IMG/VR virus record: IMGVR_UViG_3300044825_002278
Location: 39,910 to 103,909 of that record
Length of the DNA stretch: 64,000 nucleotides
Origin: a virus
Direction: 5' to 3' (one strand)
Shown here: piece by piece, positions 35,142-61,787 of the stretch
How the letters are laid out: each line of letters begins with the position of its first letter
Numbering within the stretch: position 1 is the first letter of the stretch
Notes under the pieces: generated by a model
What the model saw: the letters and a program-made list of their open reading frames with translations, nothing else
Told to the model about the DNA's origin: nothing
Database searches by the model: none
Program-made: the position numbers and the translations under genes

Positions 35142-35143
35142 CT

Positions 35144-39019: not shown

Positions 39020-39048
39020 TTTATTTACTCCTGTTTTAGGTTATAGTT

Positions 39049-39065
39049 TATTATACACATAATAA
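39049..39065 (-). promoter_or_regulatory. Putative late promoter, TTATGTGTATAATA
   Basis: On the minus strand this reads TTATTATGTGTATAATA, with TGTGTATAAT as in the plus-strand sites. It lies 30 bases before the start of the last tail gene in a 64-base gap. It is one of four such sites in minus-strand gaps. Confidence 0.6.
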
Positions 39066-39083
39066 TCGAATATGAATTAAATT

Positions 39084-39977
39084 TTAAGTATCTCCAGTGG
39101 CACATGGAGCTGGTGGGCATTCACCGGCACATTTTTCTGGACAACCAACCCATACTGGAATCCATTCGTAGTTAATTCTAGCTGCCACAACCCAAATTAA
39201 ATCTTTAACATATTCTTGATAAAGACTTGGATCTCTATTGGTTATCGTGCATTTTTCTTGGCGTTTTTTGGGCCATTTAATCGCATTGGTTGGTGGCGAT
39301 TGAGTACCGGTATCTCTAAAAACCTTAATATTAAAATATGTTGGGCTACATGGAGTAGATGGGGCAACAATAGCTTGCTCGGCAACACCGCATATCATAT
39401 GGTGTCCCATACTCCAAACTTTTCTGTCGCGATCCCATTGAAACGCAACCGGTCCACTTTTCCAAATTCCACGATTACTAGCATATTGCGGGTCCATAGT
39501 AAAAACATCATTACCTTTATAAGGAACTGGCCTATCGCCCAAGTCAGAACCCCATCCACTTAAAACCATTGGTCCTCTATGCTGACTTACTGAAACCTGT
39601 GTAATGCTTGGTCTATTTATTTTTCTAATATTCATATCGCTTCCGCTGTCGCCGGTTCCATTATTCATTACAATTTGATAATCGCATTCAGTTATAAAAG
39701 TTGTTGGGTTTCCATCTAGCCATGTTGAAAAATACGGATCTAACTCAGATCTAGTTGCTCCAAGATGTCCACTATTATACTTTCCGTTGGATCTTGAATC
39801 ACCAACAGGTATTTCAAAACTAGAAACTACACCGCTACGATTTTGTCCACCCCTAACAATTAAAATTGGAGAATAAAGCTGCTCATGTCCTGTAACAGCA
39901 TAATTTGATGGAAATTGTCCTGCGGCAGCAGCAATGTCCGATAAAATCCCATACGATCCACTAATGTCTAACGGCAT
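39084..39977 (-). CDS. Tail structural protein with cysteine-rich C-terminus
   Basis: The 297-residue protein looks all-beta, with repeated SGWGSDLGDR and GTGDSGSDMN loops and no known domain. The C-terminal 20 residues hold five cysteines (GCPEKCAGECPPAPCATGD), which may bind metal or form cross-links. It follows the 912-residue tail protein by eleven bases and is probably part of the tail tip. Confidence 0.5.
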   Translation of the reverse strand: MPLDISGSYGILSDIAAAAGQFPSNYAVTGHEQLYSPILIVRGGQNRSGVVSSFEIPVGDSRSNGKYNSGHLGATRSELDPYFSTWLDGNPTTFITECDYQIVMNNGTGDSGSDMNIRKINRPSITQVSVSQHRGPMVLSGWGSDLGDRPVPYKGNDVFTMDPQYASNRGIWKSGPVAFQWDRDRKVWSMGHHMICGVAEQAIVAPSTPCSPTYFNIKVFRDTGTQSPPTNAIKWPKKRQEKCTITNRDPSLYQEYVKDLIWVVAARINYEWIPVWVGCPEKCAGECPPAPCATGDT

Positions 39978-39988
39978 ATATTTGTCCT

Positions 39989-42727: not shown

Positions 42728-42739
42728 TTCCTAATTTCC

Positions 42740-44152
42740 TTAATTGCTTGGTTGATTGTCTGTCCAAACATAATCTAGACCCAATGTGTATTGTCCAGTT
42801 ATTGGATTCCATGTCTCGGTCATATTTTCTCTATACTTTGGACTTATATTTGGCAGATAAGAATCAATATAAGCCAAGGCTAAACTTGTTGGTCTGCTGA
42901 CTCTTGAATTTTGATTCATTGTTACATCGAGAGAAATGCTCCGTTTGCGCTCGCCAGTGGTTTGCATGTTTTGAATAATTGGGCCACTTGTTTTAGCGAT
43001 TATTGGTAATATTGCAACGATTTGATTGCCGCCATCCTCGTTATTGTAAGTAATATTTAAACTTACACTCGAAGCGCCAGCAAAAGGAACAACCCTATCA
43101 TTGAAACTTTGTGTTACAGTTATTATTCCATCTGTTCGATTATCGCTTCTTGAAGTTGATATTGGATTAACATTGAATGTCTTTGAACCGCCAGCAGTAA
43201 TATAAAATTGACTAGCCCATGTGGATATGTTTGGCTTAATGTAAGTTTCATAAAACGCCACTGCGTTGGTATACTTGTCAGAAGTTCCACCGTTTAAATT
43301 AAGCGAAGATAATCCATTGATAGTAATATTTGCTTGGACTGTTTGAGCCTCAGAAGTTTGATCGCCGTCAAAAGTAAATTCTACCGATGAAGTTGCAGGA
43401 TACAAACTGGTCTGCCAAGTAGTAGTAGCGCTGTAAGTACCTTCAAGAATATCCTGTGTTATTTGAATTGTTCGATTATAAGTAGAGTAGCCAACCGGAA
43501 TTTGTAGCGATACTGGCTCTGGTACTTTAGAAAGGTCTTGTGGAACAGTTGTAATAGGATTTGTTGATATTCTGTCCTGCACCCATTGTTTGGCTGCAAT
43601 GTAGCCAGACTTTTGCGTATCTCGGTTTGATCTTCCTGTGGCAGAAAGAGTTTGTGTGATAGTAAAAATAGTCTGCGGTAATCCAGTAACAATATCCGAA
43701 TATGTTCCTTCGTCTATGCTTGTTTCCCAGCTTTCAGATATTTCTGTTAAATGTGTTTTACTAAGAGTACTTCCAGTAAAACTATAAGCTTCAAAATTCA
43801 AAGTATAATCTTGATTTTGAATACCGCGACTAACTTCATCTTGCTGGGCTGCTTCGGTACTGATTATGATACAGTCAGTGAAAACCAAAGAAGTTGGCCC
43901 GTCGATTGTTAAAGTTCCAACTTCACCAACAACAGCCGCAATAGTTTTAACCAAATTACGCTGATTGTTTTCGCGTTGATTTAGATCGCCTGTAATAATC
44001 AAAGTGCCTGTTACTGTAATGTTATACTTTATGCCCAAATCAACCATGTCTTTTCTGATTGGTTCAGACGTAATGCTATATGCTGGCGCTGGATTGCTGC
44101 CTCCGCCAATTTGTATGTTTGATCCGCCAGTATAAGCAAATGTTATCGACAT
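42740..44152 (-). CDS. Tail protein, beta-rich, 470 residues
   Basis: I do not recognise this family. The protein is beta-rich, with several ITVTQSFND- and TITQTLSATG-like strands and NITINGLSSLNLNGG loops. It contains internally similar units in which an IT(Q/V) strand follows a glycine or serine turn, for example around residues 165, 230 and 345. It lies between the LFI-repeat protein and the hub, so it is probably a distal tail component. Confidence 0.5.
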   Translation of the reverse strand: MSITFAYTGGSNIQIGGGSNPAPAYSITSEPIRKDMVDLGIKYNITVTGTLIITGDLNQRENNQRNLVKTIAAVVGEVGTLTIDGPTSLVFTDCIIISTEAAQQDEVSRGIQNQDYTLNFEAYSFTGSTLSKTHLTEISESWETSIDEGTYSDIVTGLPQTIFTITQTLSATGRSNRDTQKSGYIAAKQWVQDRISTNPITTVPQDLSKVPEPVSLQIPVGYSTYNRTIQITQDILEGTYSATTTWQTSLYPATSSVEFTFDGDQTSEAQTVQANITINGLSSLNLNGGTSDKYTNAVAFYETYIKPNISTWASQFYITAGGSKTFNVNPISTSRSDNRTDGIITVTQSFNDRVVPFAGASSVSLNITYNNEDGGNQIVAILPIIAKTSGPIIQNMQTTGERKRSISLDVTMNQNSRVSRPTSLALAYIDSYLPNISPKYRENMTETWNPITGQYTLGLDYVWTDNQPSN

Positions 44153-44868
44153 TATTGATATCCTATCTCAAAAAGTGTTGTGGTTTTAACAATAGGAGTT
44201 TTGATAAATAGTGTGGCTGAATTTGTAGTAAGCGACCGTCCAGAAGCAAACATCGTCATTGATTGGTTTGGGTTTGTTTGCTTGATGAATAGCGGAATAT
44301 CTTTACCTTTATTGAAATCAGTTTCAATATACAGTGTTGTATTTGTATTGTGTGATTGGTCGCCACGAATAGCCAATGATATACCTTTATTGGACGCTGC
44401 ATAGCCACTAATATTGATTACACCAATCAAAGATATAGCGCCTATATCAAGTGGACTTGTGCTACCACCTTGAGGAATTTCTGGAGGCGCTGGTCTAGTT
44501 ATAAACAAAGTTGTAAAGTTTTTTTCTTCTATGTAAGCTGGTCCGCGCATTGTCAATGTAGCATTGGTTCCAATTACAGTATTTGGAATACCTCTAACTC
44601 GCATTGACAAAGGTTTGGCTATTGGTGTTCCGCCATAGTTTGGTTGACCATTCATATAAATTGGCATTTTGCCACTGGCAACGCCATCAGATAAGGGCAA
44701 GCCTATAAAAAGCGGTATTTCTGCTGACTTTGGACCGGTAATAAAAAGATTGGCACTTTTAGTAACTTCATAAACTGGCCCAATAAATAAACTAATATCG
44801 CCCGAAGCGTCAGGACCGCCGCGTATGGTCAAAGTTGTAGTGTTTACAGTTTCTAGTCCAAATACCAT
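44152..44868 (-). CDS. Tail protein with short LFI-type repeats
   Basis: The ATG at 44868, one base after the tape measure stop, gives 238 residues; an upstream GTG overlaps that gene. The sequence holds many similar strands: TLTIRG, LFIGPV, LFITGP, LFIGLP, TLTMRG, TLFITR, SLAIRG, TLYIET, LFIKQT and TLFIKT, at spacings of about 15-25 residues. This suggests a beta-helix or beta-sandwich fibre-like protein. The junction TAA-A-ATG implies coupled translation with the tape measure. Confidence 0.55.
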   Translation of the reverse strand: MVFGLETVNTTTLTIRGGPDASGDISLFIGPVYEVTKSANLFITGPKSAEIPLFIGLPLSDGVASGKMPIYMNGQPNYGGTPIAKPLSMRVRGIPNTVIGTNATLTMRGPAYIEEKNFTTLFITRPAPPEIPQGGSTSPLDIGAISLIGVINISGYAASNKGISLAIRGDQSHNTNTTLYIETDFNKGKDIPLFIKQTNPNQSMTMFASGRSLTTNSATLFIKTPIVKTTTLFEIGYQ

Positions 44869-44869
44869 T

Positions 44870-47800
44870 TTAGCTACCACCAGCCTTAAAATTTATATTG
44901 TCTAATCTTGCATCTAGTTCTCGTGTTATTATTTCTTTCAGTTTTGGAGTTATAGCTTCGGCTATTTGATTTTTTAACACATCGCCATTTTGAATATTGA
45001 AAGCCAAAGTCATGTCTCCACTAAATTGATGAACAACATTCATTCCAGCAGAAAGAGCAGAAACTAAACTTCCAACAATTCCGCCAAAACTACTAAATGC
45101 CGTTATAATGTTATCAAGTCCACTTTTGAAATCGCCACTAAATGAATCAAAAATACTTTGAATACCGTTAAAATTAAATGAAAACCCGCCGCCGGATTTG
45201 GGAATTCCACCATCTCCTAAATAATTCACTCCGCCAACCAAACCGCCGCGACGAAATCCCGGAACTTGTCCCTTGTTCAGAGACTTCATATAACCAACAC
45301 CGAATTTGTTTACAGCTTCGGGACTCATAACAAATTCGCCCGGAGTCAACATGGCCGGTATTGTGTCGGCTGGATTTCCACCTTCGTTAAAATATTTTGC
45401 GCGACCACCGCTTTGCATGTAAACCAAACCACCGCCAGAAAAATAAAACCCACTTGCCCGAAGTCTTTCAACAGCATCTCTTTCTTTTGTGGAAAGTCCC
45501 ATTCCAGCATCTCTTGCGTTTATTTGATCTTTTGTAGAAACATCGGCTCCAAACCCAACGGCGGTATTTGTTTTAGTTTTCCCCGGAGGGATTTTAACTG
45601 TTGCCACATAACTTTGTACAGAAGCAATAACATCTTCCCAAGTATCAATTGGACCTTTAGTTCCTAAAGCAGCTTCAGTTAAAAGTCCCCAGCCGGAATA
45701 TTGTATTTTTTTATATGCTTTTAAAGTTGTTATGTCGGCAAGTGACTTTTTAACCCAGTTCTCTATTGTTTCAACTGTAGCCTCTGGATTTAACATAGAT
45801 CCAGAAGCATTAATTTCGGAAAAAATTGCTCCAGCTCCAGAATTCATCCCATTCATGAAATCTGCAACAGCTTTTGTTTCTGCGGCAAGAAATCTATTCG
45901 ACTGAAACTTCCCAGATCTAATCAAAAAAATCAAATCTTTTATGTCTTTATCACTAGAATTCAGATCTTTAGCAAATTTAGTGAGTTGTCCGCTTTGTGC
46001 TAAAGCGGCGATTCCTCGCTGCATCATTGATGTATATGAAGCGCCACTTATTAGATTAATTCCGCTCAATGGTCCAGCGCCAGTAGTAGTAGCGGTAGCA
46101 GCACCGATTGGAGTTACTGGACCGCCAGCAGCGCGATAAATTGGACCGCCCATTGCTTTGTTTACAGTGGATGTGTTTCCATTGTTTATTGCAGCAAGGT
46201 TAGAAACGCCAATTTTGTCCACGGCTGATTTACGAATAACAAATTCGCCGGGAGTTAACATCGCTGGAACAGTATCTGTGCCGCGAGGTTTGAATATAGT
46301 TCCTCCGGCAGCTTTGTAAATCGCACCTTGATTTCCTATCACTCCATTTTCAGTTCTTAATATAGGACCACGATATGATGATGAAACTTTGGATTGCTTA
46401 CTTGAAGCGGCTTTTTTTGCATCTTCGTCATTAAGACGATCCCAAGGAAGTTTTCTCAATTCGCCCATTGCAGTTACTAATCTAACTGCATCTTGATCAG
46501 CAGAAATTACAGCGCCCTCAAATGGAGAACTTAATATCCCCTGAGTATCGGTCCATTTTTCAAAAGGATAATTTAATTTTTCAACAACTCTTACGCGTGA
46601 ATTTGACAAAAGATCAGTCCAAGGAACATCAAATTCTCTAGACTGTGCCGGTTGATTTGGAACATCTAATCTTTTTACTTTTGTAATTTTCACTCCAGAT
46701 GTTGATGCAGAAAGAATATCAGCTTTTATCTTTCTTCCATCCGAACTATAAAGTACATCGCGAGTATCTTCTGCCTCTTTGGCCAACTCCTGCATTCTAT
46801 TTTCTTTTTCAATTGCCTTTTTTTGTTTTCTGCTTTCTTCAGCCTGTTCAGCCTGTTGCGCCATACGTTCATTACGAGATTTTTCGGCTGCGATTTGATT
46901 ATGAACCTGTCTAGCAGCTTGATCGCGGCGCTCTTTTTCTCTAGCTTTTTCTCTGCTTGTTTTCATTTCTGGATCATTATCATATCGCTCGCCAAGGTCT
47001 GCGTCAGGAGCTATAGATAAAAGGTAATTTCTTATAAGATCTTCTGTAACATATAATCCACTACTAGAAAATTTGTAAGCTCCAGCGTCTTTAAATTTTT
47101 GATTTTGTCTTATATTATTATCTAATTTTATTTCATCATTTAAAACACCATACTTTGCAAGCTGATCTTTGTTTTTTTTAACAGCAAGATTTGCTAATCT
47201 ACGTTTTTCTTTTTCGGAATTGAATCGAGATAAAACTTTTGGTTTAAAATCATTTGAAATATTTTTACTAGCTAAAAGTACGCCAGCAAATACCTCTTCA
47301 AAATCTGGATTAGATTTCTGTATTCCAAACATTTTAGTTGTTAATGGTTGTAAAATATCAACAAACCCAGAATCAATTAATTTCTTATACCTTCCAGCCT
47401 CTCCAATCATTCTTTTTCCGCTAGTTTGAGGTGGATTAGGAAGTCTATCAATCATACTAAAGAAATCATTAGGATCTGATAATTCCGAATAACTCATCAA
47501 AGAGTTTCTTAGCTGCTCTTTTAATGCGCCATCTCCAAATATTTTTGAAAGAATTTTACTTCTTGTGACATCTGGAAAACTTTCAGTATTATCAATAATA
47601 CCGGAACCTGTAAACATATTTCCATAATAGTCTGCTATAGTTTGCAAATAAGATTGATTTTGAAGCTCTGGACTTTCAATAGCATTGTTCAAATATTGCA
47701 TTTTGATAAATAAATCCCTTAATCCCGGAAATTGTCTTTCTGCATCACTCCACTCGCTATAAGGCTTTAAATCTGGATATTTTTGAATTAATTCATCTTC

Positions 47801-50800
47801 TTTTTTATTACTTCCGTTAGCACGATATATAACACTTCCGCCTTTGCTTCTATTAATTGCTTTCAATAACGGCATATTTTTAGCAGCCGAACGTGCATTG
47901 ACAACATATTCGCCCGGAGTGAGCATTGCCGGTACAGTGTCGGTTCCTTTGGACTGAATAGAACCGCCATCGGCACGATAAACAACACCACCCTTTGAAA
48001 AACCAAGAGAACCAGCCTGCGTATTGAGATTACTAGCCGGAACTTTGGCGGCAATCGCCTGAAGTTTTGTTTGTGTCCTGAGTTCTTGTAAAATTAATTC
48101 TTCGGTTGTGGTTTGTGTAGCAAGTTCTTTAGCAATGTCTGGCGGAAAACCTAGACGAACGGCATCTCGGAAAACAAGCTCATTGGCAATTTGACCGCCA
48201 GTTAATCCAGTCCCAGCAATCATAACATCTTTTAATTTATCGAGCAAACCAAAAGTTTGCGAGCGTTGTTCTTCGCTCAAATTCTGCGTTGTCCCAGTTT
48301 GTATGGCAGACAAAACTCCCATTGCGCCAGATGTGATTGCAGATCTTGCATCATCTCCGCCAGCAACAAACTCTTTTAAAACAGAGAATGCTTGCTCGCG
48401 AACTTGACGTTCTTTATCTAAAGCTTCTGTAAGCCGATCTATTTCAGCGCCTGAACTCGCAATTTCTTCAAGAGCAGCCGAAGCATCTTTTGTAACATTG
48501 GCAAGTTGCGCTTGTTCAGCTTGAAGTTTAGACAATTGGCCATCTAGGTCTTTTACAGTATTTCCCAATTGTTTCAAACGCGCTATTTCGTTTATAATTT
48601 CAATTGTACGAGCTTGTGCCGCTTTCTTTTCGCGAGCAAGTTGTGCTGGATCTGTAGCATTTAAAAATCTCCCGCCGCGACTAGCTTGCCCAGCGTTGAG
48701 TGTTCTTTGACGAGATTCGAGTTCGTTTCTGGCTCTTACAGCGGCAACACTTTGTCCAGTGGCACGCGCCAAAGCTTCAGAACCAGATGAAACGGCGCTA
48801 TTGTATTTGCTAATTGCCGACAATTGTTCTTCGCGCAACATTTGTTCGGCTTGAATTTGTTGTTGCCGAAGATTGATTTCTTCCTGCTGAACCGATTGAA
48901 TTTCATTGATGATACTTGCTGAATCTTTGGCACGTTCTGCCAAAGGCGCAAGAATTTTATCCAAAACTTCTGGAGTAATTGGTGTTTTTTGATCGCGCAA
49001 AGTAACGGCAATTTGCTGGAAAATAGCTTTTCCTAATTCTCCACCGCCCAAAGCTTCTGGAGTTAAACCTATATCTTTTAAAATCTTTTCAGCGTCAATA
49101 GACTCTTCTAATTCAAATGTTTTACCAATTAGCGACTTGTTTGCTTGTTCAAAAAGTTTGGCTACATTGGTTAGTTCATCGGCTGCTTTTTGAGCTTCTG
49201 GACTTCCAGAAACTTGGGCAACACCTTGAACTTGACGAGAAAATTTTGCGGCATCGGTGATTTTGCTTGGTTCTTCGATATTTCTAATTGGTTTAATTGC
49301 AGTCGATAAATCAACAATACCGCCAGAAAGAGTATCAGTAAAATCTTTTAATGCTTCGGAGCGCGCCTTGATTGTATCCTTTTCATCGGCCAAAGAATCT
49401 AAAAATACAGCAGTTCTTCGCGCTGCTTCGGCCATAGCAATTTGAGCAGCTACTGCCCGTTGATTTGCTTCCGCCTCGGCCATTTTTGCCTTTATAGTTG
49501 CGTCTCTTCCTGCATAAGCAGCGTTAATTTTTATCTGACTTTCTTTATTGACTGCATCTACAGCATTTTTATCCTGCGAGTTAACTTGACTTAATTTGAA
49601 ATCCCGTTCTCTTTCAAGTGATTGAACATAAGCTTCTATTGCTTGATTGTAAGCAGCAACGGTTTTTTGAGCAGCGTTGGTGGTTCCACTAAGATCTAAA
49701 TTAGCGGCAGCATCATTTAAATTCTTACCAGTTTCTTGAATTTGTCTTGCCGTTTCGTCTGCCGAAGCTTTGAGAGTTGCAACGCTTGCTTTAACGCTTG
49801 CTTGTATATCGGCTATATCGCCTTCGCCCAAATCTGGGTTGTTCTTTTTTGCCGCTGCTGCTATTTCTTCTGGACTCATAGCAGATGCCGCTTCTGTAGT
49901 TACTCCCAATCTTCCAGCGCTAGTTTTTAATTGGTTTGAAGCTAATGTTCCGGCTCTTAAAGCATCGTTTCCAGCAGAAGAAGTAGCAATAGCCTCCATT
50001 CTTCGTTCAAGTTTATCTTGATTGCTAAGTCCCGGAGTAGACTCTATTGCGTTTAAAGTACTGCTTAATTTGTATGAAGATGCGCTTAATTGAAGATACG
50101 ATTCGTATACTTTTCCAATTGCTTCAACTTCGCGTCTTCTTGCTTCTGCCGCCTCCATAACCGCCGACTCTGAATCCAACAAAGCCGTTCCAAGTCCAGC
50201 AGCAGCTCCAATGGCTCCACCGATAGCTGCGCCAAAAGGACCGCCAAGTAAAAATCCAACTCCAGCGCCAGCGGCAGTAAAAGAAGCAACAGTTTTCAAT
50301 GAACTTGCAGACATTTGCTCGGCGCTTCTTTGTCGCATTTCAAGTTCTTGTTCAAGTCCAGCTTGTAGTTCTCCGGGTTTAAAATTAGATACCCCAGTTT
50401 CTGCTGCACTTTTGAGTCTAGCGTCTCTATCTTTGCTGATTGCTTCTGCGCTTTCTTTGTTTTGAGAAGACAAAAATTTTAGCGCAGACACGGCAGCAAC
50501 GGCTGCAATAACCACAAGCCCAAGCGCATTTGCAGCGGCAGCGCCTTTTTGGGCTGCGGTATTTTGTGTAATAGAAGTGGTGTTTGCTTGAACCGCGAGA
50601 CTATTTGCGCCAAAAGATGTTAAAGTTTGTGCAAGCGTTCCAACAATACCAACCAAACCTACGGTAAAGCCAGCGGTTTCTGCTATTGCTTTGTTTGTTG
50701 TGTCGCCAAATAATCCAAGTTGACTTGTTACTGCTGCTACCGAAGCCCCAAGAAATGCAAAATTTTGCATACTACCAGCAATTTCACCGCCTCTTTGAGC

Positions 50801-53800
50801 AAAACCAGCCCGAGAATCTTTGTCGCCAAGACCAACCCCAGTATACTTTGGCGCACCTAAGAATTCTTTTCTTTGCTCTTGTCTTTTTTTAGCCAAAGAT
50901 TGATTCAAAGCCTGCTGTTCAGTGGTTGTATTTCTTATAACCTGATTTAAAGCATCTTGAGAAGTCCATCCCGCTTTAACAAACATTCTATATCTAGCAA
51001 AAGAATCTTTAAGTTGTTGACCTTCCAAGCCCATAGCTTTGAACATTCCAGATGCATATACAGCATCTTTTTGAACTTGATTAAAATTTCCGGTTTGAAC
51101 TGTAACGCTACCAGCGGCTCTTGCTTCAGATGTTCCTGCTGTTTTTCTGGCATCAGATGCTTGTTGTTGTTCTAATCTTCTAGCAAGTTGTTCATTTGCA
51201 TCTTCGGTTCGACCAATCGCTTTATTGGCTGACTGCATCGATTTAGAAACAAGTTCTGTGTCATCGCTTACTTTATCAACATTTCTGGTAAATCCCTTCA
51301 AAGCCGCTTTAACAGCTTCAACATCTGTTAAACCACTCAATTGTCCGGTCAACTGCTCAAAAGCCGATGTGTTCTTAATTGCCGCTTGTTTAAGCATTGC
51401 AAATTCTTTGATGGATAATTGAGAAACTGCTCCAGTTCCTCCTCTAAGCTGATCAAGCTGTTGAGCTACGCCACCTTGGGCAAACTTTTGTACACCAACT
51501 ACACCACCACGGGCATAACCAGTAACACCGTGTTTGTTCATACGGTTGAGATTTGTATATCCAATACTTTGTGCAGCCGACTTGCTAACAACAAATTCTC
51601 CGGGAGTAAGCATTGCTGGAACAGTATCTGAACCAGATATACCTCCGCCAGAAGCGCGTTTAACAACTCTTTGCGCCCTTGAGCCTTTTGTGTTAAAGGC
51701 ATCCAGTGCCGGTTGTTTGCTACCGCCTTGAGTAAATATCATATTGGCAAGCGGAATACCAAATAACTGATTTAAATATTCCCCAACGCCATCGACACGG
51801 CGAGACTTGGTTATAATTTTTAAATTATTTGGATTGATTTGACCATTTTGAATAGCCGATTGCAACGTCTTTCCAAATTGTGTTAATGGAGAAGATTTAA
51901 TATCTTGTAGTCTGCCTGCACCAACAAAATACTTTTTCAATACTTCTTCTTTTGCTTTTTCTGTTTTAGCTTGAGCGTAGGCTTTATCACCAATTGTTCT
52001 AATTAATGTGCGGTCTACATCAAGAGCGCCGCCACCAGCTTTGATAATATCTTCGATATTTTTTGGATTTGGAAGAATCGCACCCTTGGCATTTTCTAAT
52101 ATATCATCAACCAATGGGTAATTACTTGGTTTTACACCAGTACCAGAACTGCCTTTATTAAATTTTTGTATTAAGCCGCCAAAATGTTTTTTATTTACAG
52201 TAGATTTGTCATTAACTGTTGGTCTATTTTGAAAATAAGATTCATATAAATCTGATGCTAATTGACTTTGTGTCTTTTTCTCAAATTCATTGGGAGCAAT
52301 GTTCGACCCGCCTGAAACTTTAGCGTCAACATAATTTATAGCTTGCAAAGCCCGAAACAGTTTTCCAGTTTTAACACCATTAGTAAAATCAAATGGCCTA
52401 TTCGATTCTTTAGCTTCAGCCGAGAGTGGCTGACCATTAAAAGCATCAACAACATCTTCAAATAAATTACCCTTTTGCGCTTGTGGTAATTGATATTGCG
52501 GCGAAAATTGAACCTCGTTTCCTTGTAGTCTTACTTCAGCCACTGCGCCAAATTTTTGTACTACAGAATTTATTAATTTTTTAGATTCTTCATTTACAAT
52601 ATTGTCAAATGCAAGTTTTTCTTGACTCCCAATACCTTCCGCTAATGTGGAATATGTTTTTTGTGTAAACCCAAGCTGTTTTTGAGCCACATCCTTTATA
52701 TCTTGAATAGACATTTTGCCACGAGATATTAATGTATCTCTAGCTCCGGCTTTTATATTTGTAGGAATTCCATAGATATCAACAATAGATTTTGAAGCTA
52801 ATGCACCAAAACCAGTTTTTTTATTTATTACGTCATTAAGAGATATTGTAACTTGCCCAGATTTTGGCTGTAGTGACTCATTTATTATATCTGGAACCGC
52901 AATTCCAACTGACGATTCCTTTGCTATACCACCAGCAGCATACCCATTAGCATTCATTTGCGCCAGTGTTCCAGCGCCCAATTTATTCACACTGCTTTTG
53001 CGAATCACAAACTCGCCCGGAGTTAGCATTGCCGGAACAGTGTCACGATTGCCACTTCCGGGAACCAAGCCACCACTCGCAAACTTGCTTGCACGAATAC
53101 CGCTTGGCGCACCAGCAAACCCTCGCAATATACCAATACCACTCGCCAATCCCTGACCAGCTTTTAACGCAAACAAAGTAGTAAGCAGCGGAAGCACCGG
53201 CTCTAAAGCTTTGCCAATATTGATGAATGCATCGGCAAGTTTTAACGCTCCGGTTATAATACTTCTAAACGAATCGCTACCAACTAAATTTGCAATAAAT
53301 TCATTGAATTTTTCTTTGGTTTTATTTATTTGAACTGCTAAAGCTTGTTGCGATGTTTGAGCATCAGCAGCAACCGAACCGCTTGCGCTTTGAGCAATAT
53401 TTAAAGCTTGCTGCGCAATAGTAAATTGATTGATAAGAGGAATAACTTTACCAATTTGACGATAACCGCCAAGTTCTTCGACTATTGCAGCAAATCTAAA
53501 ATCACGAGGGTCTAAAGACGACAACCCTTCGGACAATCTTTTAACAGCCTCAAAAGCTCCAACAAATTGTCCTTGTGAATTTCTAAGTTCGATACCTAAT
53601 TCTTTCAAAGCGTCCACGGTATCGCCGCGTTGTATACGTGTAAAAATAGTTCGCAAGCCAGTACCAATCGTTTCGGCACTTTCGCGTGTAGTGGCACGAA
53701 CACTTGTAAACAAAGAAATAAGCTCGTTTACGCTTCCGCCAGCATTTGAAAACACGCCGCCAACTTTGCGAATAACATCCACAAGGTCGGCAGATTCAAC

Positions 53801-54555: not shown

Positions 54556-55539
54556 TTATTCGCTCGCAGCGTCGTTTTCAGCCAAAACCTTTTTCTTAGT
54601 TTTCTTGGTTTTTTCTTCGCCAACACTACCTTCTGCCACAAGATTTTCTTCTTTTTCAAAATCTTCCTTTTTGGCAGTAACAATAGGGTTGCCATTGTCA
54701 TCCAAAAACGGCTTGCGAACAGCTTTGTCCTTTGTAACCCAGCTTTCCTCGCCATCTTCGTCAACAATTTTGATCACTTCTTGACCGTCCTTGTTTACAT
54801 AATAACGATCATTTGGATCTTTGTTGAGTTCGCCTTCGGGCGTGCGATATGCGACAAAACGTCCATCATCATCGATGAGTCTGCCTTCAATATCAACAGT
54901 ATGACCCTTTTCGTTGATGAGCGACAATTCTTCGTTTACAAATTCAAACTCACGCAAAAACTTATTCTCGGTAAGTTTATTGTCATAATCTGGATCAAGC
55001 CCATAAATAATGCTTGCAAGCTCAGAAGAAGCCTTTACAACCCAAGGCTGATCGCCACTAGCGTCAAAGTCCTTTTGGGTTTGAAAGTATGGCTGATTTG
55101 TGTTTGGATTGACCATGCAAAGTCTAACCAGTTCGGTAAATCGCGCATTGTCGGCTTGGCCCTCAACCGTGTTTTGATCGAGAATATTTCTTTCTGCAAT
55201 AAATTCACGAAATTGAAAACGAAGTCGTCGCAAATCCAAAGCAATTTGTTTTGCTTCCGATAGTTTGATGCCACCGCTCTTCAGGACTTGTTCTTTTTCC
55301 TGAATTTCGTTTATATATCTGTCGTTCTTTTCTTGCTTTTCTTTGTTCCAAATTCCCTGTTCGGTCATGTAGTCAGAAAGTTTTTGTCGCAGCAAAGCTC
55401 CAGAGTCAAGCGCTTTTCTAAAAGCCTTGTTGTATTCGATTTGTGAATCACGATACTCTTGAGGTCCGGGAGTTTTCAGCTTGATACGAACATTGTTTCC
55501 GTCTTTGTCTATTGACTCGATAATTTTTTCTTTATCCAT
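54556..55539 (-). CDS. Acidic tail assembly-region protein, possible chaperone
   Basis: The ATG at 55539 has AAGGAG nine bases upstream, giving 327 residues; an upstream ATG at 55566 is inside the previous gene. It begins MDKEKIIESIDKDGNNVRIKL and has a long helical middle with an acidic strand-rich part (IDDDGRFVAYRTPEGE, VDEDGEESWVTKDKAV) and a lysine-rich end. Genes between tail tube and tape measure usually encode tail assembly chaperones, and this one is a good candidate. No frameshift site was found at the junction. Confidence 0.5.
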   Translation of the reverse strand: MDKEKIIESIDKDGNNVRIKLKTPGPQEYRDSQIEYNKAFRKALDSGALLRQKLSDYMTEQGIWNKEKQEKNDRYINEIQEKEQVLKSGGIKLSEAKQIALDLRRLRFQFREFIAERNILDQNTVEGQADNARFTELVRLCMVNPNTNQPYFQTQKDFDASGDQPWVVKASSELASIIYGLDPDYDNKLTENKFLREFEFVNEELSLINEKGHTVDIEGRLIDDDGRFVAYRTPEGELNKDPNDRYYVNKDGQEVIKIVDEDGEESWVTKDKAVRKPFLDDNGNPIVTAKKEDFEKEENLVAEGSVGEEKTKKTKKKVLAENDAASE

Positions 55540-55921
55540 CTTGGTTATCTCCTTGGTTGGAATCATTACTTACTGGTAAATTAATCTGATATCTTTTCTT
55601 CTGAACTTCATACCCCGAAAATTCTGCTTCTAAATTTCTAATCTGCGTGTTGCCACGATCCAGAATTGTAGCGCGAATTTCATCGTATATGTCCTTCATT
55701 TGTTTTTGTTCTGTTGTTAGCTCTTCTTCGTTTTCAAAACACCAAAGAAAGCCAAACCTCTTTTCGATTGTATCCAAAGCGCCAATCATAGTTGTTTGTA
55801 TTTTCTTTTTACAAGATTTAAACAACGAATCCTTGGATACTTCCCTCCTCCTTTCTTCACGAATGTTTTTTAAGTTTATTGACTTCTTGAGAAAATTGTT
55901 GTAATCTTTATCATCCGACAT
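55532..55921 (-). CDS. Small tail assembly-region protein, 129 residues
   Basis: The protein has a basic helical N-terminus (NIREERRREVSKDSLFKSC), a central IQTTMIGALDTIEKRFGFLW segment and a helical C-terminus with an acidic, asparagine-rich tail. I do not recognise the family. It overlaps the downstream gene by eight bases and follows the 350-residue protein after one base, so all three are likely translated together, as expected of tail assembly chaperones. Confidence 0.5.
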   Translation of the reverse strand: MSDDKDYNNFLKKSINLKNIREERRREVSKDSLFKSCKKKIQTTMIGALDTIEKRFGFLWCFENEEELTTEQKQMKDIYDEIRATILDRGNTQIRNLEAEFSGYEVQKKRYQINLPVSNDSNQGDNQDG

Positions 55922-55922
55922 A

Positions 55923-56975
55923 TTATCTTCCTTTTGACTTTATTGCGCTTCTGGCAGTATTAACTGCATTTAACATTCTTTCTTGCTTAACATCTGGCAA
56001 TTCTTTATGATTCAACAAACCAGAAGTGCTTTTAATTTCTTCTTGGCGTTGCTTGATAATCGTCCTAACTGCATCATTATTTAGAGAGTAAACATCCTGT
56101 GCTTCTTCTTGCGAGTTTGCCATAACAAATATTTCTTGAGAGTTTTTAATTTTTGGATTGCTAATCAAATCCTCGGTTTGTTGCTTTATCTTGTCTTTTT
56201 CATGTTTTCTGCGTTGTTCAATAAACCATCCATCAAGACAATCATCGTCGTCAATAACTTCTTCTTTGGGTGATTCTGGATTTTCATAAACGCTATCATA
56301 CATTTGAGAATATGAAATCAAAGCAAGTTGATTTTGATCAAGATAAACAGACGATTTACCAAAAACATCGCCGCGTTTTTTCGAGCTATTCCACATTTGT
56401 CGCCAAGGCGAAGTTCTAGCTATTTTACGAAATGTTGTTGGATCTATTGCAGAGGCTGAATATTCCTCAAGAATGGTTTGGATATTAACATCTAAAAAAT
56501 CGTAATTTTTACCATCGATTGTTTTTGTGGTTTGTTGTAAGATCCAAGCTCTGCGAGTGAAATTAGCGACTCCAGAGCATGTAATATGATCAAATTGTTT
56601 TTTCTTATGTGCGGTTATGGCTCGATCCATTTCGGTCATCCTTATCAGTCTTTTTATACCCGACAATTCCTTCTTTTTAAAAAATGCCTTGTAAGCATTT
56701 ACCTTTAATTCTTCTAACTTTTTATCCATTGCTTCGACTTCTTTGTCATCAAACGGAGTCCACATATCATAATCTATCAATAGACTCAAAACTTCTTGTT
56801 CGGTATAACAACCAGAAAAATAAGCTCTTTTATATGCCTGATCGTATATTTCAAAAGATTCTTCGAGTATCTCGGCAGATGGCTCGTGTATAAACAAAAC
56901 AAGGTCGCCCAGCCGAATGCGTAGGCGACCCTGAATTATTCTATTTAAAATCTTTTCGTAGTAAATTTCATCCAA
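55923..56975 (-). CDS. Tail assembly-region protein, 350 residues
   Basis: The protein is helical and charged. It starts MDEIYYEKILNRIIQGRLRIRLGDLVLFIHEP and has SFEIYDQAYKRAYFSGCYTEQEVLSLLIDYDMWTP, then KKKQFDHITCSGVANFTRRAWIL. I recall similar proteins near the tail tube gene in other environmental phages, where no function is known. By place it is an assembly chaperone or a peripheral tail factor; it is longer than most chaperones. Confidence 0.5.
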   Translation of the reverse strand: MDEIYYEKILNRIIQGRLRIRLGDLVLFIHEPSAEILEESFEIYDQAYKRAYFSGCYTEQEVLSLLIDYDMWTPFDDKEVEAMDKKLEELKVNAYKAFFKKKELSGIKRLIRMTEMDRAITAHKKKQFDHITCSGVANFTRRAWILQQTTKTIDGKNYDFLDVNIQTILEEYSASAIDPTTFRKIARTSPWRQMWNSSKKRGDVFGKSSVYLDQNQLALISYSQMYDSVYENPESPKEEVIDDDDCLDGWFIEQRRKHEKDKIKQQTEDLISNPKIKNSQEIFVMANSQEEAQDVYSLNNDAVRTIIKQRQEEIKSTSGLLNHKELPDVKQERMLNAVNTARSAIKSKGR

Positions 56976-56998
56976 ATCCTAGTCCTTAATCTAATTTA

Positions 56999-57997
56999 CT
57001 AAGCTCCGCCATCCAGCACTGTCAAGTTATTGTAGTTGCTGAACGAGTAAGTAACTGTAGCATTTCCGCCACCAGTGTCGCCACCGGAGTAAGAAATAGC
57101 AGTCAGTTTATTTTTGTTTCCTAAATTAATAACAGTACCGGCAGTATCGCGAAGAACTATAGAATCGCCAGCTCCCAAGTTCTTGTTGCTTCCAGAAACG
57201 CTCTTGAGATCACCCGAAGTCGCAATAACTTCAAATTCACAAGTAACTTCGATTGGGAAAGAAGTAAATTTGGCATAAGGTCCAAGACGACCAAGTTCAA
57301 GAATATTTTCCTGACCAAAATCAGCACTGACGCTGATACTTTGAATATGCGTACTATTGGCAAGATCGCCGCGTTGCGAATTAACGATTTCTGGAATAGT
57401 AGATCCAGCAACATTAAAGTTGACACGACGAACAACACCCGAAGCAGGAGTGTCTGTATTGAAACCAGTTGCCAAAGGACTGCCGCCAGCAACCCAACGA
57501 GCATAAGCCGTTGCTGGACCGCCGGTATCAGCATTCCAAAACTTATCGTTGCCAACAAGCGTAACCGATTCAGTGGCATTTCCATCAACCGAATAGTTGT
57601 ACGAAACATTGCTGACATACATACCGGAATTCCAGCAAACATTTCTTACTGCGCCGGTAGCATTTGCTGTGCCGTCGTCATAAATAGCAACATAAACATC
57701 GCAACGGGCTTTTGCAGCGCCAACCAAGTCGGTCTTGCACTTTCCATTGCTTGTTAGATTGAAAATGAGCTTTTCGCCGTCGATAACCTTTTCAAGGCTA
57801 ACTTCGGTGTCGCTAACATCTTCGATATTTTCATAAAGTTCAAGCTGACCGATTTCAAAAACCTGATCAAGTGTGAACGTAGAATTCATACCAACGCTTT
57901 GCAAACCACGCACAATATGCGTTGAGGCAGGATCTACACCGGTCGGTGTAATTGCCACTGCTTGGCAAGCGTAAAAAATTCTGTCATTTCTTGGCAT
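56999..57997 (-). CDS. Major tail tube protein
   Basis: This 332-residue beta-rich protein starts MPRNDRIFYACQAV and contains GLQSVGMNSTFTLDQVFEIG, typical of the N-terminal strand pattern of tube-type proteins, and ends with SYSGGDTGGGNATVTYSF. The ATG has AGGAG eight bases upstream and a promoter-like site 42 bases upstream, consistent with high late expression. It is directly upstream of the assembly and tape measure genes, the usual place of the tail tube gene. A paralogue lies at 3530-4489 on the other strand. Confidence 0.72.
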   Translation of the reverse strand: MPRNDRIFYACQAVAITPTGVDPASTHIVRGLQSVGMNSTFTLDQVFEIGQLELYENIEDVSDTEVSLEKVIDGEKLIFNLTSNGKCKTDLVGAAKARCDVYVAIYDDGTANATGAVRNVCWNSGMYVSNVSYNYSVDGNATESVTLVGNDKFWNADTGGPATAYARWVAGGSPLATGFNTDTPASGVVRRVNFNVAGSTIPEIVNSQRGDLANSTHIQSISVSADFGQENILELGRLGPYAKFTSFPIEVTCEFEVIATSGDLKSVSGSNKNLGAGDSIVLRDTAGTVINLGNKNKLTAISYSGGDTGGGNATVTYSFSNYNNLTVLDGGA

Positions 57998-58038
57998 TTA
58001 AAATTCTCCTATAGAATTTAGTCCTCTGGTAAGGCACT

Positions 58039-58055
58039 ATTGTATACACAAAAAT
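58039..58055 (-). promoter_or_regulatory. Putative late promoter before the tail tube gene
   Basis: The minus strand reads ATTTTTGTGTATACAAT, sharing TTGTGTATA with the other sites and ending in a palindromic GTATAC. It lies 42 bases upstream of the tail tube ATG in the 61-base gap after the preceding gene. Extra transcription from here would fit the large amount of tube protein a virion needs. Confidence 0.6.
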
Positions 58056-58058
58056 CGA

Positions 58059-59045
58059 TTAAACTGGGCCAACTTCCGTTGAACAACGCGCAACACCCAT
58101 ATAAAGATCAACAGAAAGTTGAGTTATATTTTCACCACGAGTATTGTAAACCCAACATTTTCTGTATGGATAATTGTCCACTAAATGAGGGTAAAGACCA
58201 CTAGCCTGAGCATGGCCTCGCAATTCTCGTTCTTTTCCATTTTCAAATGTGAATGGAGAAACACCGCTTTGAGCCACTTTTGTACTGTCAAAAAGGGTTA
58301 AAGTTCGATCATTTTGGGCAACAATAGTATCAATCAAATTGACAGCTTCCCAATGGTTTTCAGTCATAACATAAAATAGAATGTCGCTGTTGACCCATTG
58401 ACCACCGCCCAACTGGTAGGGTTTTGTTTGTCGGGCAGGAACAACCTCAACAGCTATCGCTGGCAGTTGAACGCGCGTTTCGCCCAAACGAACCCAACCA
58501 CCAGAACCCTGAACTTGAAAATTAGCTTCGTTTCTAAAAGAATTTTGCTGTAATTGCCGAAACCAAGAAACACCTTCGGCTGGTATAGTTTGCACTCGTT
58601 TGTGGCTATATTCTAGCTGAACATTGCTGGTTGTTGCCTGAGCCGAATCAAAAACAACGCGACCCAATTGATAGTCTATATAAAACGGTTTTGTAACATT
58701 GCCAGTGGCATAAAATGTGCCGTTAACATAAACACCAGAAATATTTATTGGTTGCTGATTAACGCCATCGATATTGCCGCTGCCTTCCCAAACCCAATTT
58801 TGACGATAACCCTCCCAAACTCGACCAGCAGTATAATTCGGCGCATCAACCAATCTTAGTTTATGACGGTCGCCACCATAAATACCGCTTTGAGGAATCG
58901 ATATTGTGTAAAACCCGCCTTTATCAAGCAAGCCCCAATCATAAAAATTAACAAAATTATCCAACAAAACTTCCGACAAAGTTGCATCTGTGGCTTTTTC
59001 CAAACCTCCAGCAAGATTTAATTTTGTATGCGATCCTCCGGGCAT
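58059..59045 (-). CDS. Virion structural protein of the neck/tail, 328 residues
   Basis: The protein starts MPGGSHTKLNLAGGLEKATDA and then LLDNFVNFYDWGLLDKGGFY. It has many aromatic residues and a beta-rich pattern (SIPQSGIYGGDRHKLRLVDAPNYTAG). I recall similar sequences next to tail tube genes of aquatic phages, with no assigned role. Its position between the tail completion-like protein and tail tube suggests a tail terminator or collar component. It overlaps the previous stop as TAATG. Confidence 0.5.
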   Translation of the reverse strand: MPGGSHTKLNLAGGLEKATDATLSEVLLDNFVNFYDWGLLDKGGFYTISIPQSGIYGGDRHKLRLVDAPNYTAGRVWEGYRQNWVWEGSGNIDGVNQQPINISGVYVNGTFYATGNVTKPFYIDYQLGRVVFDSAQATTSNVQLEYSHKRVQTIPAEGVSWFRQLQQNSFRNEANFQVQGSGGWVRLGETRVQLPAIAVEVVPARQTKPYQLGGGQWVNSDILFYVMTENHWEAVNLIDTIVAQNDRTLTLFDSTKVAQSGVSPFTFENGKERELRGHAQASGLYPHLVDNYPYRKCWVYNTRGENITQLSVDLYMGVARCSTEVGPV

Positions 59046-59647
59046 TATAATGTTCCTGTAATTATGCTTTGTATTTGTGGATAAACTCTATCAATAGCTC
59101 GTGTTATAAAGTTATCGTTTAAAGTTCCAGAAAAGGCACTATTTACTTTATATGGGGCCATTTTACTTGACATTCTAGCATCGCCAGTCCGAGAAGTTTT
59201 AAATGATCCAAACTCTACGCCAAATCCAGTAATTATAATCGAGTCGCCCAATGTTAAAAGCCACGAAAGCCACGGTAAACTTCCGCCCTCTATTGCTTGC
59301 TGCGCAAAAGATCTTCCCAAGATGTTAGAATAATCAGACGGTTGCATCAGTATCTCGATACCGCCTCCACGGTTTTTTTGCGCATAAAGTGGACGAAACT
59401 CGATAGTCGCTAAAATCGCTTCGATGAGTTGATTGGTTGGATCAGTTTCAAGACCAAACTCGGCTCGCAAAGCACCATTTTGCAACGAAGCTATTTCTGG
59501 ACTTGAAGCCAACGCCAACCGTACAACCGGAATAATTCTTTGTTTTAAAGTTGGTAATAAATTTTTGATGGCAAGATTAATTTCTTTGGCCAGCGCGCCG
59601 TTGATTGCGGCAACAACTTGAGCATCGGTTTCTCGAAACTTAATCAT
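59045..59647 (-). CDS. Tail completion/neck-type protein, 200 residues
   Basis: The ATG at 59647 overlaps the preceding stop as ATGA; an upstream start at 59665 is less likely. The protein is helical at its N-terminus (AQVVAAINGALAKEINLAI, then LLPTLKQRIIPVVRLAL) with a hydrophobic WLSWLLTLGDSIIITGFGVEFG segment. That pattern resembles proteins of the head-tail connector or tail completion group (HK97 gp10-like), though no firm family is assigned. Order in the operon agrees. Confidence 0.45.
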   Translation of the reverse strand: MIKFRETDAQVVAAINGALAKEINLAIKNLLPTLKQRIIPVVRLALASSPEIASLQNGALRAEFGLETDPTNQLIEAILATIEFRPLYAQKNRGGGIEILMQPSDYSNILGRSFAQQAIEGGSLPWLSWLLTLGDSIIITGFGVEFGSFKTSRTGDARMSSKMAPYKVNSAFSGTLNDNFITRAIDRVYPQIQSIITGTL

Positions 59648-60159
59648 TGCGAAGCCCTTGTCCAAAAAGTAACAATATATTTAGTATTGTTTTGCTTGAA
59701 GCCTTGAGGAAACGACATGCCCATTTTTTCAAACTTAGCATTCGGATCATACTTTTCTATACCATCATATTTTGGTATCATATACTTGCACTTTTCTATT
59801 TTGTCCAAGTCGGCCATATATGCTATAGTTTGAATTGCGCCATCGGGAATATTGATTGCTGCTCCGGTGTTTACCCAAGATTTACGATCCCAATAAATTC
59901 TCAGAGTAATTTCATCGGTATCTTCTACTGCTTTATAACCTTGGCCATTACAATAAGGACACGGCATACCGCGCTCGAACGGGTATGGTCCTCCAGTTTT
60001 ATAAATACTAATAGAACGTCCAGTATTGCCCATTGTATTCATAAGGCAATTCGGACAGTCTTCTTTCTTTTCTGGATAAACCAACGTAGCACTTCGCGTA
60101 AAAAGCAAAATCGCTTCGTTGTAAACATCGAAAACGCTACTTGGTATATTGATAGCCAT
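59644..60159 (-). CDS. Zinc-ribbon neck-region protein, 171 residues
   Basis: C35-x2-C38 (DCPNC) and C67-x2-C70 (CPYCNGQGYK) form a DnaJ-like or rubredoxin-type zinc ribbon inside an otherwise beta-rich protein that ends with MSFPQGFKQNNTKYIVTFWTR. A zinc ribbon in a structural protein of the neck is known from head-closure proteins of several phages. It lies between a small protein and the tail completion-like protein, in keeping with a head-closure role. Confidence 0.5.
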   Translation of the reverse strand: MAINIPSSVFDVYNEAILLFTRSATLVYPEKKEDCPNCLMNTMGNTGRSISIYKTGGPYPFERGMPCPYCNGQGYKAVEDTDEITLRIYWDRKSWVNTGAAINIPDGAIQTIAYMADLDKIEKCKYMIPKYDGIEKYDPNAKFEKMGMSFPQGFKQNNTKYIVTFWTRASQ

Positions 60160-60169
60160 TTAAGTTTCC

Positions 60170-60406
60170 TTAACCAGCGCCGTCGCCAGCATAGTAACGA
60201 GGATCGTCATATCGTGTATCAAGCGATGCATCAATTGCAGCTATAGATTGATCAACTTTAGAAGGATCAATGCCTTGCGGGTTTAAAGTATGTTTACTAT
60301 CTAAAAAAGAAGCCGAGTCTAATCCGCGCGCTCCAGCAACGCCAACAACAGCGCATCCACCATTTGGTTGCGCATTGCCGGTAATAATTTTTTGAGATAC
60401 AGCCAT
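60170..60406 (-). CDS. Hypothetical small protein, 78 residues
   Basis: No family is recognised. The product starts MAVSQKIITGNAQPNGGCAVVGVAG and ends in a polar acidic stretch (DTRYDDPRYYAGDGAG). GGAGAAAAATAA upstream of the ATG gives a ribosome-binding site. It lies between the connector-like protein and the zinc-ribbon protein with gaps of 10-23 bases, so it belongs to the same operon. Confidence 0.45.
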   Translation of the reverse strand: MAVSQKIITGNAQPNGGCAVVGVAGARGLDSASFLDSKHTLNPQGIDPSKVDQSIAAIDASLDTRYDDPRYYAGDGAG

Positions 60407-60429
60407 TTATTTTTCTCCGTATATTGAAT

Positions 60430-60939
60430 TTAAAAATATCCGCCGCCATCGTAACGGTTTTGACTAACATTCCAACTTCCGGGACTGTAAGGACCAAGTA
60501 TCGCAGTGCCAACCGGAGTTCCGTCGCCATTGCCCGATTCGTAACGATAACTATTTAGTAAATCTTCATACTTTGCACACAAGTCTTTGTAAAGGTTTGT
60601 TAAACTTCCACTAACACCACGAAGGTCGATAGCCGAAGGACCATCTTTTATAGAAATAGCGTTGGCCGATTCGGTTTTAACTTCGCTGCCAACTAAAATA
60701 CAAGCACTTTTATAAACAGTTAAAACGGTAAAATTTGTATCATTTAAATCTACTGGATCTGGAGTGATCGAAACACCACCAACATTTGCAGTATAAGTAT
60801 TTGGAAAAGTAGCATCATTTTGAACATTGTATGCACCAACCACCAAGACCTGTTTTAGTCGTGCATCGGTATATTTAGTAGAGTCAAGATCGCCAATAAT
60901 AGATCTTAACATCAAAACCATATCTGTTTGCCACGGCAT
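60430..60939 (-). CDS. Head-tail connector-like protein
   Basis: The ATG at 60939 has AGGTGA upstream and gives 169 residues. MVLMLRSIIGDLDSTKYTDARLKQVLVVGAYNVQND (residues 7-42) is the usual N-terminal helical repeat of phage connector/adaptor proteins (xxLR..IGD....YTD..L...L..A). The C-terminal half includes a conserved helix (LYKDLCAKYEDLLNSY). A promoter-like site lies 35 bases upstream. Confidence 0.6.
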   Translation of the reverse strand: MPWQTDMVLMLRSIIGDLDSTKYTDARLKQVLVVGAYNVQNDATFPNTYTANVGGVSITPDPVDLNDTNFTVLTVYKSACILVGSEVKTESANAISIKDGPSAIDLRGVSGSLTNLYKDLCAKYEDLLNSYRYESGNGDGTPVGTAILGPYSPGSWNVSQNRYDGGGYF

Positions 60940-60973
60940 GTTTGTCACCTTTAGATAGAAAGTCTGTGTGTTG

Positions 60974-60990
60974 TTGTATACACAATTTAC
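60974..60990 (-). promoter_or_regulatory. Putative late promoter before the connector-like gene
   Basis: The minus strand reads GTAAATTGTGTATACAA. It carries the TTGTGTATA core and the palindromic GTATAC seen at 58039-58055. It lies in the 68-base gap upstream of the gene at 60430-60939. Confidence 0.6.
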
Positions 60991-61007
60991 GTGACGATTT
61001 TTAAAAT

Positions 61008-61787
61008 TTATTGAACTCCAACAACAAAAGTTGCTGTAGAATCTGGAGTCAAAGTTTTCACCAAATGAGTGGTAACACCATCGGTACGCTTTATTGTCCA
61101 AGTTGTACCAGAAATACTATATTCAAGAGCCGCCAGAACCAATGTACACAAAGAATGTTCTGGAGCCATACTTTCAACACTAAACATATCGCGGGTAAGA
61201 ATACCATCGCCAATTTTATAAGCAGCGCTCGTTGCCACGGCGCTAGAATTTATAGCATCAACAGCAAAAGCCGAACTGGTTATTGCGCCCACGGTAAAAC
61301 CAAGCACAGTAACTCCATTTACAGCCATATCGTTGAGATATTTACCGGCAGTACCAGCGCCATTGTGGGAAGCAAGAACTTCATCCCAAACAGCATCGGC
61401 TATTTCGGCAACTGCCGAAGCAGACAATTCAAGATTGCCAATTGCATCGGTTGCGATTGCAGCCGCAGTAATAGCACCATCGGTAAACGATAAAGGGGCA
61501 ATTGCTTTGTTTAGCAACACCCCCGATGATTGTCCAAATTGAAATGTAGTATTTGTATCTTCAGCGTAACCCCACCAAATAGCCACAGCAGTAGATCCAA
61601 CAGTGGCAACGAGTTGATAAGTTCCAGCGGTTAGGTTTGCAAAGGTTGCTATATAATAACCTTTACGATTTGTTTGTTCAACACACGAAGAAGCAGTGTA
61701 TGCGACGGTATCAGAACCAATCGCATACAGCTTCGCCGTTAGTGTCATTCCGCTTGGTGCTTCAAACTCGATTTGTTGAGTTGGCAT
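61008..61787 (-). CDS. Virion structural protein with ADAVWDE motif
   Basis: The 259-residue protein has a beta-rich N-terminal domain (about 80 residues, MPTQQIEFEAPSGMTLTAKLY) followed by alanine-rich repeats (ITAAAIATDAIGNLELSASAVAEIADAVWDEVLASHNGAGTAG). AVWDE-x-LA-x-H segments are widespread in phage virion proteins annotated as head or tail structural proteins. The exact role is not known. Its start overlaps the preceding stop as TAATG. Confidence 0.5.
   Translation of the reverse strand: MPTQQIEFEAPSGMTLTAKLYAIGSDTVAYTASSCVEQTNRKGYYIATFANLTAGTYQLVATVGSTAVAIWWGYAEDTNTTFQFGQSSGVLLNKAIAPLSFTDGAITAAAIATDAIGNLELSASAVAEIADAVWDEVLASHNGAGTAGKYLNDMAVNGVTVLGFTVGAITSSAFAVDAINSSAVATSAAYKIGDGILTRDMFSVESMAPEHSLCTLVLAALEYSISGTTWTIKRTDGVTTHLVKTLTPDSTATFVVGVQ

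Follow-up and report, generated by a model that had tools for sequence, protein, structure and literature searches.

An exchangeable nuclease-like cassette in a slot of a phage tape measure protein

We analyzed a 64,000-nucleotide stretch (hereafter the window) of a 103.9-kb virus record, in which the largest open reading frame encodes a tape measure protein with a cassette domain that fills a slot bounded by the first and the second TPGEFV motif of its tape measure family. The cassette is probably a virion-borne, exchangeable, metal-dependent PD-(D/E)XK-like nuclease that occupies a dedicated slot, is delivered with the genome and cuts non-self DNA; that it is an active nuclease, sits in the virion and is ejected, and what it targets, are points that we infer. 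Evidence that bears on this reading includes a near-invariant set of residues of catalytic type, the order of secondary structure elements in a confident structural model, and the replacement of whole cassettes by unrelated nuclease-like domains in closely related phages.

The tape measure protein and its cassette domain

The 3204-aa product was identified as a tape measure protein by profile matches and as a very long ORF of the tail module. Residues 133-339 match the Pfam family PhageMin_Tail (E 3e-26), and matches to several PHROG tape measure families reach E values down to 8e-27. None of the tape measure relatives in INPHARED exceeds about 31% identity at the N-terminus, where the SPbeta protein YomI, annotated as a transglycosylase, is a distant relative. 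The ten proteins that flank the tape measure (window 38045-44880 and 54556-61787, minus strand) are essentially without PHROG match, which marks this phage lineage as poorly known. Further along the protein, a hydrophobic stretch with a glycine-zipper pattern is a possible membrane-insertion segment, and similar glycine-zipper-like runs occur in 32 of 65 full-length relatives. Three more TPGEFV motifs are found at residues 2182-3052 (window 45330-47940, minus strand), with cassette-like stretches between them. On the plus strand of the window, positions 21571-37261 hold a run of glycosyltransferase genes and a sugar epimerase gene, and modification of DNA or virion by sugars is possible; DNA polymerase matches are spread over two ORFs (positions 246-612 and 627-1066 of PHROG 405) with another ORF between them (window 16731-18305, 18977-19663 and 19672-21231), perhaps owing to an intron or an inserted gene.

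Table 1. Features of the tape measure gene in the window and slot types outside the main cassette family
Feature	Position in window, or loci	Strand	Basis or conservation
Tape measure protein gene, 3204 aa	44870..54484	-	Largest ORF; PhageMin_Tail and PHROG tape measure families
Left boundary motif DTVPAMLTPGEFV, residues 481-493	53006..53044	-	
Nuclease-like cassette domain, residues 520-750	52235..52927	-	87-member slot family; AlphaFold2 model
E676, helix glutamate of GNLFE (672-676)	52457..52459	-	86/86; rank 1 of 239 columns
D699, aspartate of RPFDF	52388..52390	-	D 84/86, E 2/86; rank 2
D720-A721-K722, (D/E)xK motif in YVDAKVS	52319..52327	-	Conservation; model strand 200-202
K737, conserved lysine in the next helix (model 212-230)	52274..52276	-	Kept in 78/85
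Second module with HAD-like motifs (LDVDRTL/DxDRT, IITKSRR/TKS, GSKQPA), residues ~775-945	51650..52162	-	Motif only
Right boundary motif DTVPAMLTPGEFV, residues 953-965	51590..51628	-	
Glycine-zipper hydrophobic stretch, residues 1400-1435	50180..50287	-	Pattern search
SNase-like slots (n=3)	L019, L027, L146		Sorted by eye from motifs
Slots with other E/D/ExK layout (n=7)	L025, L104, L030, L042, L045, L073, L090		Sorted by eye from motifs
Slot of another kind (n=1)	L102		Sorted by eye from motifs
Slots cut by contig end (n=4)	L014, L033, L062, L069		

A preliminary description of this DNA had proposed a PD-(D/E)XK nuclease-like domain inside the tape measure protein. GNLFE at residues 672-676, D699, D720 and K722 all lie where it had placed them, between the boundary motifs at 481-493 and 953-965. 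The domain is discrete and real, and its boundaries at residues 520-750 are slightly wider on the N-terminal side than had been claimed.

The domain family was built with an iterated HMM with trimmed flanks, after an earlier broad profile that grew into the conserved flanks had been discarded, and comprises 87 domains with a mean pairwise identity of about 18%. The cassette carries a near-invariant quartet of catalytic type in PD-(D/E)XK order, and the succession of E, D and (D/E)xK by which this superfamily is recognized runs across the 87 domains. Position 720 is occupied by D in 70 and by E in 16 of 86 domains (D or E in all 86), an interchange that the superfamily name itself describes; K722 is kept in 83 of the 86 and absent in three, and G672 is kept in 84. 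By Jensen-Shannon conservation, E676, D699, position 720 and K722 rank 1, 2, 4 and 6 among 239 columns, with a chance of 1e-7 that four columns fixed beforehand would all fall within the top six, although these ranks are partly circular because the recruiting profile itself contains the motifs. Independently of the profile, a regular expression for GxxFE...(D)...(D/E)xK matched 72 of 97 related tape measure slots, compared with a mean of 0.9 and a maximum of 4 for shuffled slots and with 3 of 351 length-matched segments from elsewhere in the same proteins. The E/D/(D/E)xK layout of the slots is beyond chance.

An AlphaFold2 model of residues 520-760, computed with 43 aligned sequences and numbered as residue minus 519, is confident (pLDDT 91.1, pTM 0.83). 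This part of the protein had been called non-helical; the model is instead mixed alpha/beta, with eight helices of at least four residues. E676 (157 in the model) is located inside helix 149-163, D699 (180) adjoins a strand bridge at 181, and D720-K722 (201-203) are placed on and directly after strand 200-202, with helix 212-230 next. The predicted order of secondary structure elements fits that of PD-(D/E)XK nucleases, so that the structure prediction agrees with the earlier proposal in its alpha/beta character and in the succession of helix E, bridge D and DxK strand, at the level of secondary structure only. Strands 6-11, 22-29 and 89-98 of the model precede the motif helix, and a permuted sheet is a possible arrangement.

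Membership in the PD-(D/E)XK fold was not confirmed by searches with this model. At E <= 0.001 Foldseek retrieved no match for it from either PDB or BFVD; the best Foldseek match, a ParB-like protein with a TM score of 0.12, was judged meaningless. The cassette sequence, used singly and as a profile, had no Pfam, PHROGs or PDB sequence match, and Pfam had none for 43 members of the family. Comparison by hhalign with Mrr, UPF0102, PDDEXK_1, VRR, SNase and HNH families and with decoys gave no match and is uninformative, since the known PD-(D/E)XK families also missed each other in that set-up. The highest-scoring of 42 hhalign targets was another type of cassette (A5-type, GNAFE..PLDG..LEVKR), with a P of 0.004 from a set-up whose positive controls failed; the model of this A5-type cassette is of low confidence (pLDDT 44).

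Slot occupancy and cassette exchange among related tape measures

Two scans with N-terminal tape measure profiles yielded 80 loci each, the second being 80 of 455 confirmed relatives, and 14 contigs from genome bins of many phyla were added; removal of duplicates left 97 tape measures with the first TPGEFV motif. All 97 carry cargo behind this motif, with a median slot length of 346 aa and a shortest complete slot of 191 aa, and no slot among them is empty. The iterated HMM recruits 82 of the 97 slots. The remaining 15 fall into the groups given in Table 1, among which the SNase-like type is recognized by DGDT..R..GYDAYE..FGR; their sole library support is a match of Pfam SNase to L019 at an E value of 0.036, below the cut-off. 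From their motifs, and assigned mostly by eye, the SNase-like and A5-type occupants also look like nucleases. In nearly every relative with a readable slot, the slot holds an interchangeable nuclease-like domain, which suggests a tail-carried nuclease delivered with the DNA. One relative (L050) has a very long slot (residues ~480-1375) with a P-loop-like GPAGSGKTTF, an acetyltransferase-like stretch and the nuclease-like domain, which looks like several effector modules in series.

The cassette domain was not found in the cultured phages of INPHARED, and a genome scan detected the family only on metagenome-assembled contigs; we assign no host to these phages because the contigs fall in many unrelated phyla. 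Two contigs of the SAR202 bin OSU_TB57 (L087 and L097, 94 and 153 kb) both encode the tape measure family, and represent either a host link or misbinned phages.

Comparison of closely related phages indicates that cassettes are exchanged as whole units with sharp boundaries. Four pairs (L061/L059, L072/L057, L001/L064 and L079/L054) are 93-99% identical over tape measure residues 60-460 and only 25-28% identical in the domain. L060 and L059 share 99.9% identity across the 10.1 kb that lead up to codon 504, have unrelated sequences from there to codon 788 and are 94.7% identical thereafter, and the four loci L059-L062 carry four different cassettes on backbones that are 93-99.9% identical to L060. 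In swapped pairs, homology stops roughly 20-39 codons past the start of the first TPGEFV motif and returns about 7-14 codons ahead of the second. A relative obtained by the whole-protein scan (L003) is about 90% identical to the window in the N-terminal region and has a different domain in the slot (GYLFE..GFDFP..AEAK). Conversely, the one close homologue obtained when viral contigs were scanned for the domain (L001) is 68% identical to the window in the domain and only 49% identical in residues 60-460.

A second module with HAD-like motifs is not part of the nuclease-like domain, though it lies inside the same TPGEFV interval. It is 92.3% identical to L003 at the nucleotide level over 691 nt, whereas the adjacent nuclease cassettes are unrelated; therefore, the two modules move separately. 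The module has no Pfam or PDB match, and its DxDRT/DxDKT motif occurs in 10 of the 97 tape measures. In L001 (residues ~925-935), and also in L064, an HExxH metallopeptidase-like domain (TGTIDHEVGHLVD) replaces the HAD-like module.

No gene that co-varies with the cassette was detected. L060 and L059 do not differ in the 10.1 kb upstream, and L072 and L057 are continuous over about 7.7 kb on the upstream side of the slot, apart from one 0.35-kb insertion, and as far as roughly 4.3 kb beyond the gene. The swapped pairs display an exchangeable domain behind a constant part, the arrangement by which polymorphic toxins are recognized, with toxicity only putative here; a toxin-immunity system of this kind was dropped as a model, since the compared stretches contain no co-varying neighbor gene.

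The domain is under constraint, as dN/dS between the window and L001 slots is 0.24. Within pairs of similar cassettes pN/pS reaches 0.56, compared with 0.10 in the N-terminal region; the slot is not special in this respect because the region after it gives 0.50, a value from few pairs. The high pN/pS of the slot shows looser constraint and not necessarily an arms race, and diversifying selection is not claimed.

Proposed function of the cassette

In the mechanism that we favor, the tape measure would be built into the tail with the cassette aboard as cargo. Ejection of tape measures together with the genome is established in general, and the same would take place here on infection. Inside the recipient cell the nuclease would then cut DNA that is not the phage's own, with the host chromosome, plasmids and resident or competing phages as candidate targets. 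Sequence comparison shows that cassettes are replaced as units by recombination via the conserved flanking segments in which the TPGEFV motifs are encoded, and since no immunity gene is linked in the compared stretches, self-protection would depend on inactivity before ejection or on substrate specificity. The best argument for DNA cutting as the function of the slot is that unrelated nuclease-like types share it, and the same observation argues against a single fixed site in the DNA of the phage itself as the target. Our reading is further supported by the near-invariant E/D/(D/E)xK set and K737 in so divergent a family, by the order of elements in the confident model, by the always-filled slot and by whole-cassette swaps between near-identical phages.

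Since the slot belongs to the protein's N-terminal third, and the N-terminal part of the phage lambda tape measure is directed toward the head and hence lies near the DNA end, the nuclease might alternatively act on the phage's own DNA, processing the end of the genome in the tail, holding it there or aiding DNA entry in the manner of EndA-type nucleases, which are proposed to help DNA entry. An always-filled slot is what such an essential step would require, and a linked immunity gene would be unneeded; an essential act on a conserved DNA end, however, does not predict unrelated cassettes in near-identical phages, and we consider this explanation unlikely. Less likely again is a purely structural role as a plug, played by a catalytically dead or non-catalytic domain with affinity for DNA or metal. 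The missing match to any known nuclease fold and the loss of K722 in 3 of 86 domains are compatible with a plug, but the residues conserved are the catalytic ones and not a surface patch, D and E both occur at position 720, and replacements of SNase-like and ExK type point to activity and not to shape.

Swap boundaries in conserved flanks are also expected of a homing-like selfish cassette that, in mixed infections, cleaves tape measure genes bearing different cassettes and is copied into them by repair via the flanks, and nuclease genes are known at phage gene-exchange boundaries, some of them in or near tape measure genes (PMC10448857). Homing endonucleases and inteins need empty alleles as targets, however, and we rank this model low because no empty slot exists (0 of 97); in addition, the HAD-like neighbor module moves independently. 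SNase-type nucleases are non-specific, which speaks further against homing; we regard this model as very improbable. We regard as the most improbable explanation another metal- or phosphate-binding enzyme of a new fold with a similar residue pattern, which would agree with a confident model that has no fold match, but not with the order of the motifs or the nature of the other domains that fill the slot, both of which point to nucleases.

Relation to known systems

The closest tested precedent for a tape-measure-borne nuclease is Tme, an effector of the contractile injection system of Streptomyces davawensis that is related to tape measures and for whose C-terminal domain endonuclease activity has been measured (PMC11126660). 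As in the protein described here, for which the nuclease is predicted, a remote tape measure homologue is combined with a DNA endonuclease domain in a tail-like device; Tme also has predicted transmembrane helices. The nuclease of Tme is C-terminal, EndA-like (DRGH, H-N-N) and delivered by a bacterial injection system, whereas the cassette is internal, exchangeable and borne by a phage, and its conserved residues are of another kind, E/D/(D/E)xK. With the PD-(D/E)XK superfamily (Mrr_cat, RecB/PDDEXK_1, UPF0102, VRR_NUC and others) the cassette shares the order of helix-E, strand-D, strand-(D/E)xK and a helix with a conserved basic residue, and its GxxFE resembles, by eye, the helix motifs of the Mrr type; it differs from these families in that further N-terminal strands and a long helix precede its motif helix.

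Polymorphic toxins also combine a constant delivery part with exchangeable toxic domains, whereas the carrier here is a phage structural protein. The T6SS DNase effector Tde1 needs a glycine zipper for membrane passage, its zipper region matches tape measures too, and such zippers have been noted in tape measures as well (PMC10240207); DNase and zipper likewise occur together here, as a predicted nuclease and the stretch at residues 1400-1435. Phage polyvalent proteins are large, multi-domain proteins with several enzyme-like domains that are delivered with the DNA (PMC5512222). The text of that paper does not mention tape measures, and in our case it is the tape measure that acts as carrier. 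Tape measures with lytic transglycosylase domains have embedded enzymes in the same way, with cell-wall enzymes in place of the DNase-like domain. In phage lambda, the ejected tape measure contacts inner-membrane entry proteins, a contact that the defense nuclease SNIPE exploits (PMC13190303). The papers searched contained no account of phage tape measures with nuclease domains, which is weak evidence of novelty because most subscription journals and preprints were outside the search.

More broadly, the tape measure may be a polymorphic weapon carrier in a large lineage of uncultured tailed phages, with an always-filled slot, traded unrelated nucleases and no linked immunity gene, each virion injecting its own nuclease; we hold the case for this wider view to be evenly balanced. 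The cassette design, with one carrier, different cassettes and four named residues, makes the nuclease reading testable. If the domain is active, it would explain part of the size of these tape measures, offer a source of unusual nucleases and connect the tape measures of phages with effectors of contractile injection systems such as Tme, and the tail would deliver a DNase into the cell as the genome enters, ahead of any phage gene expression.
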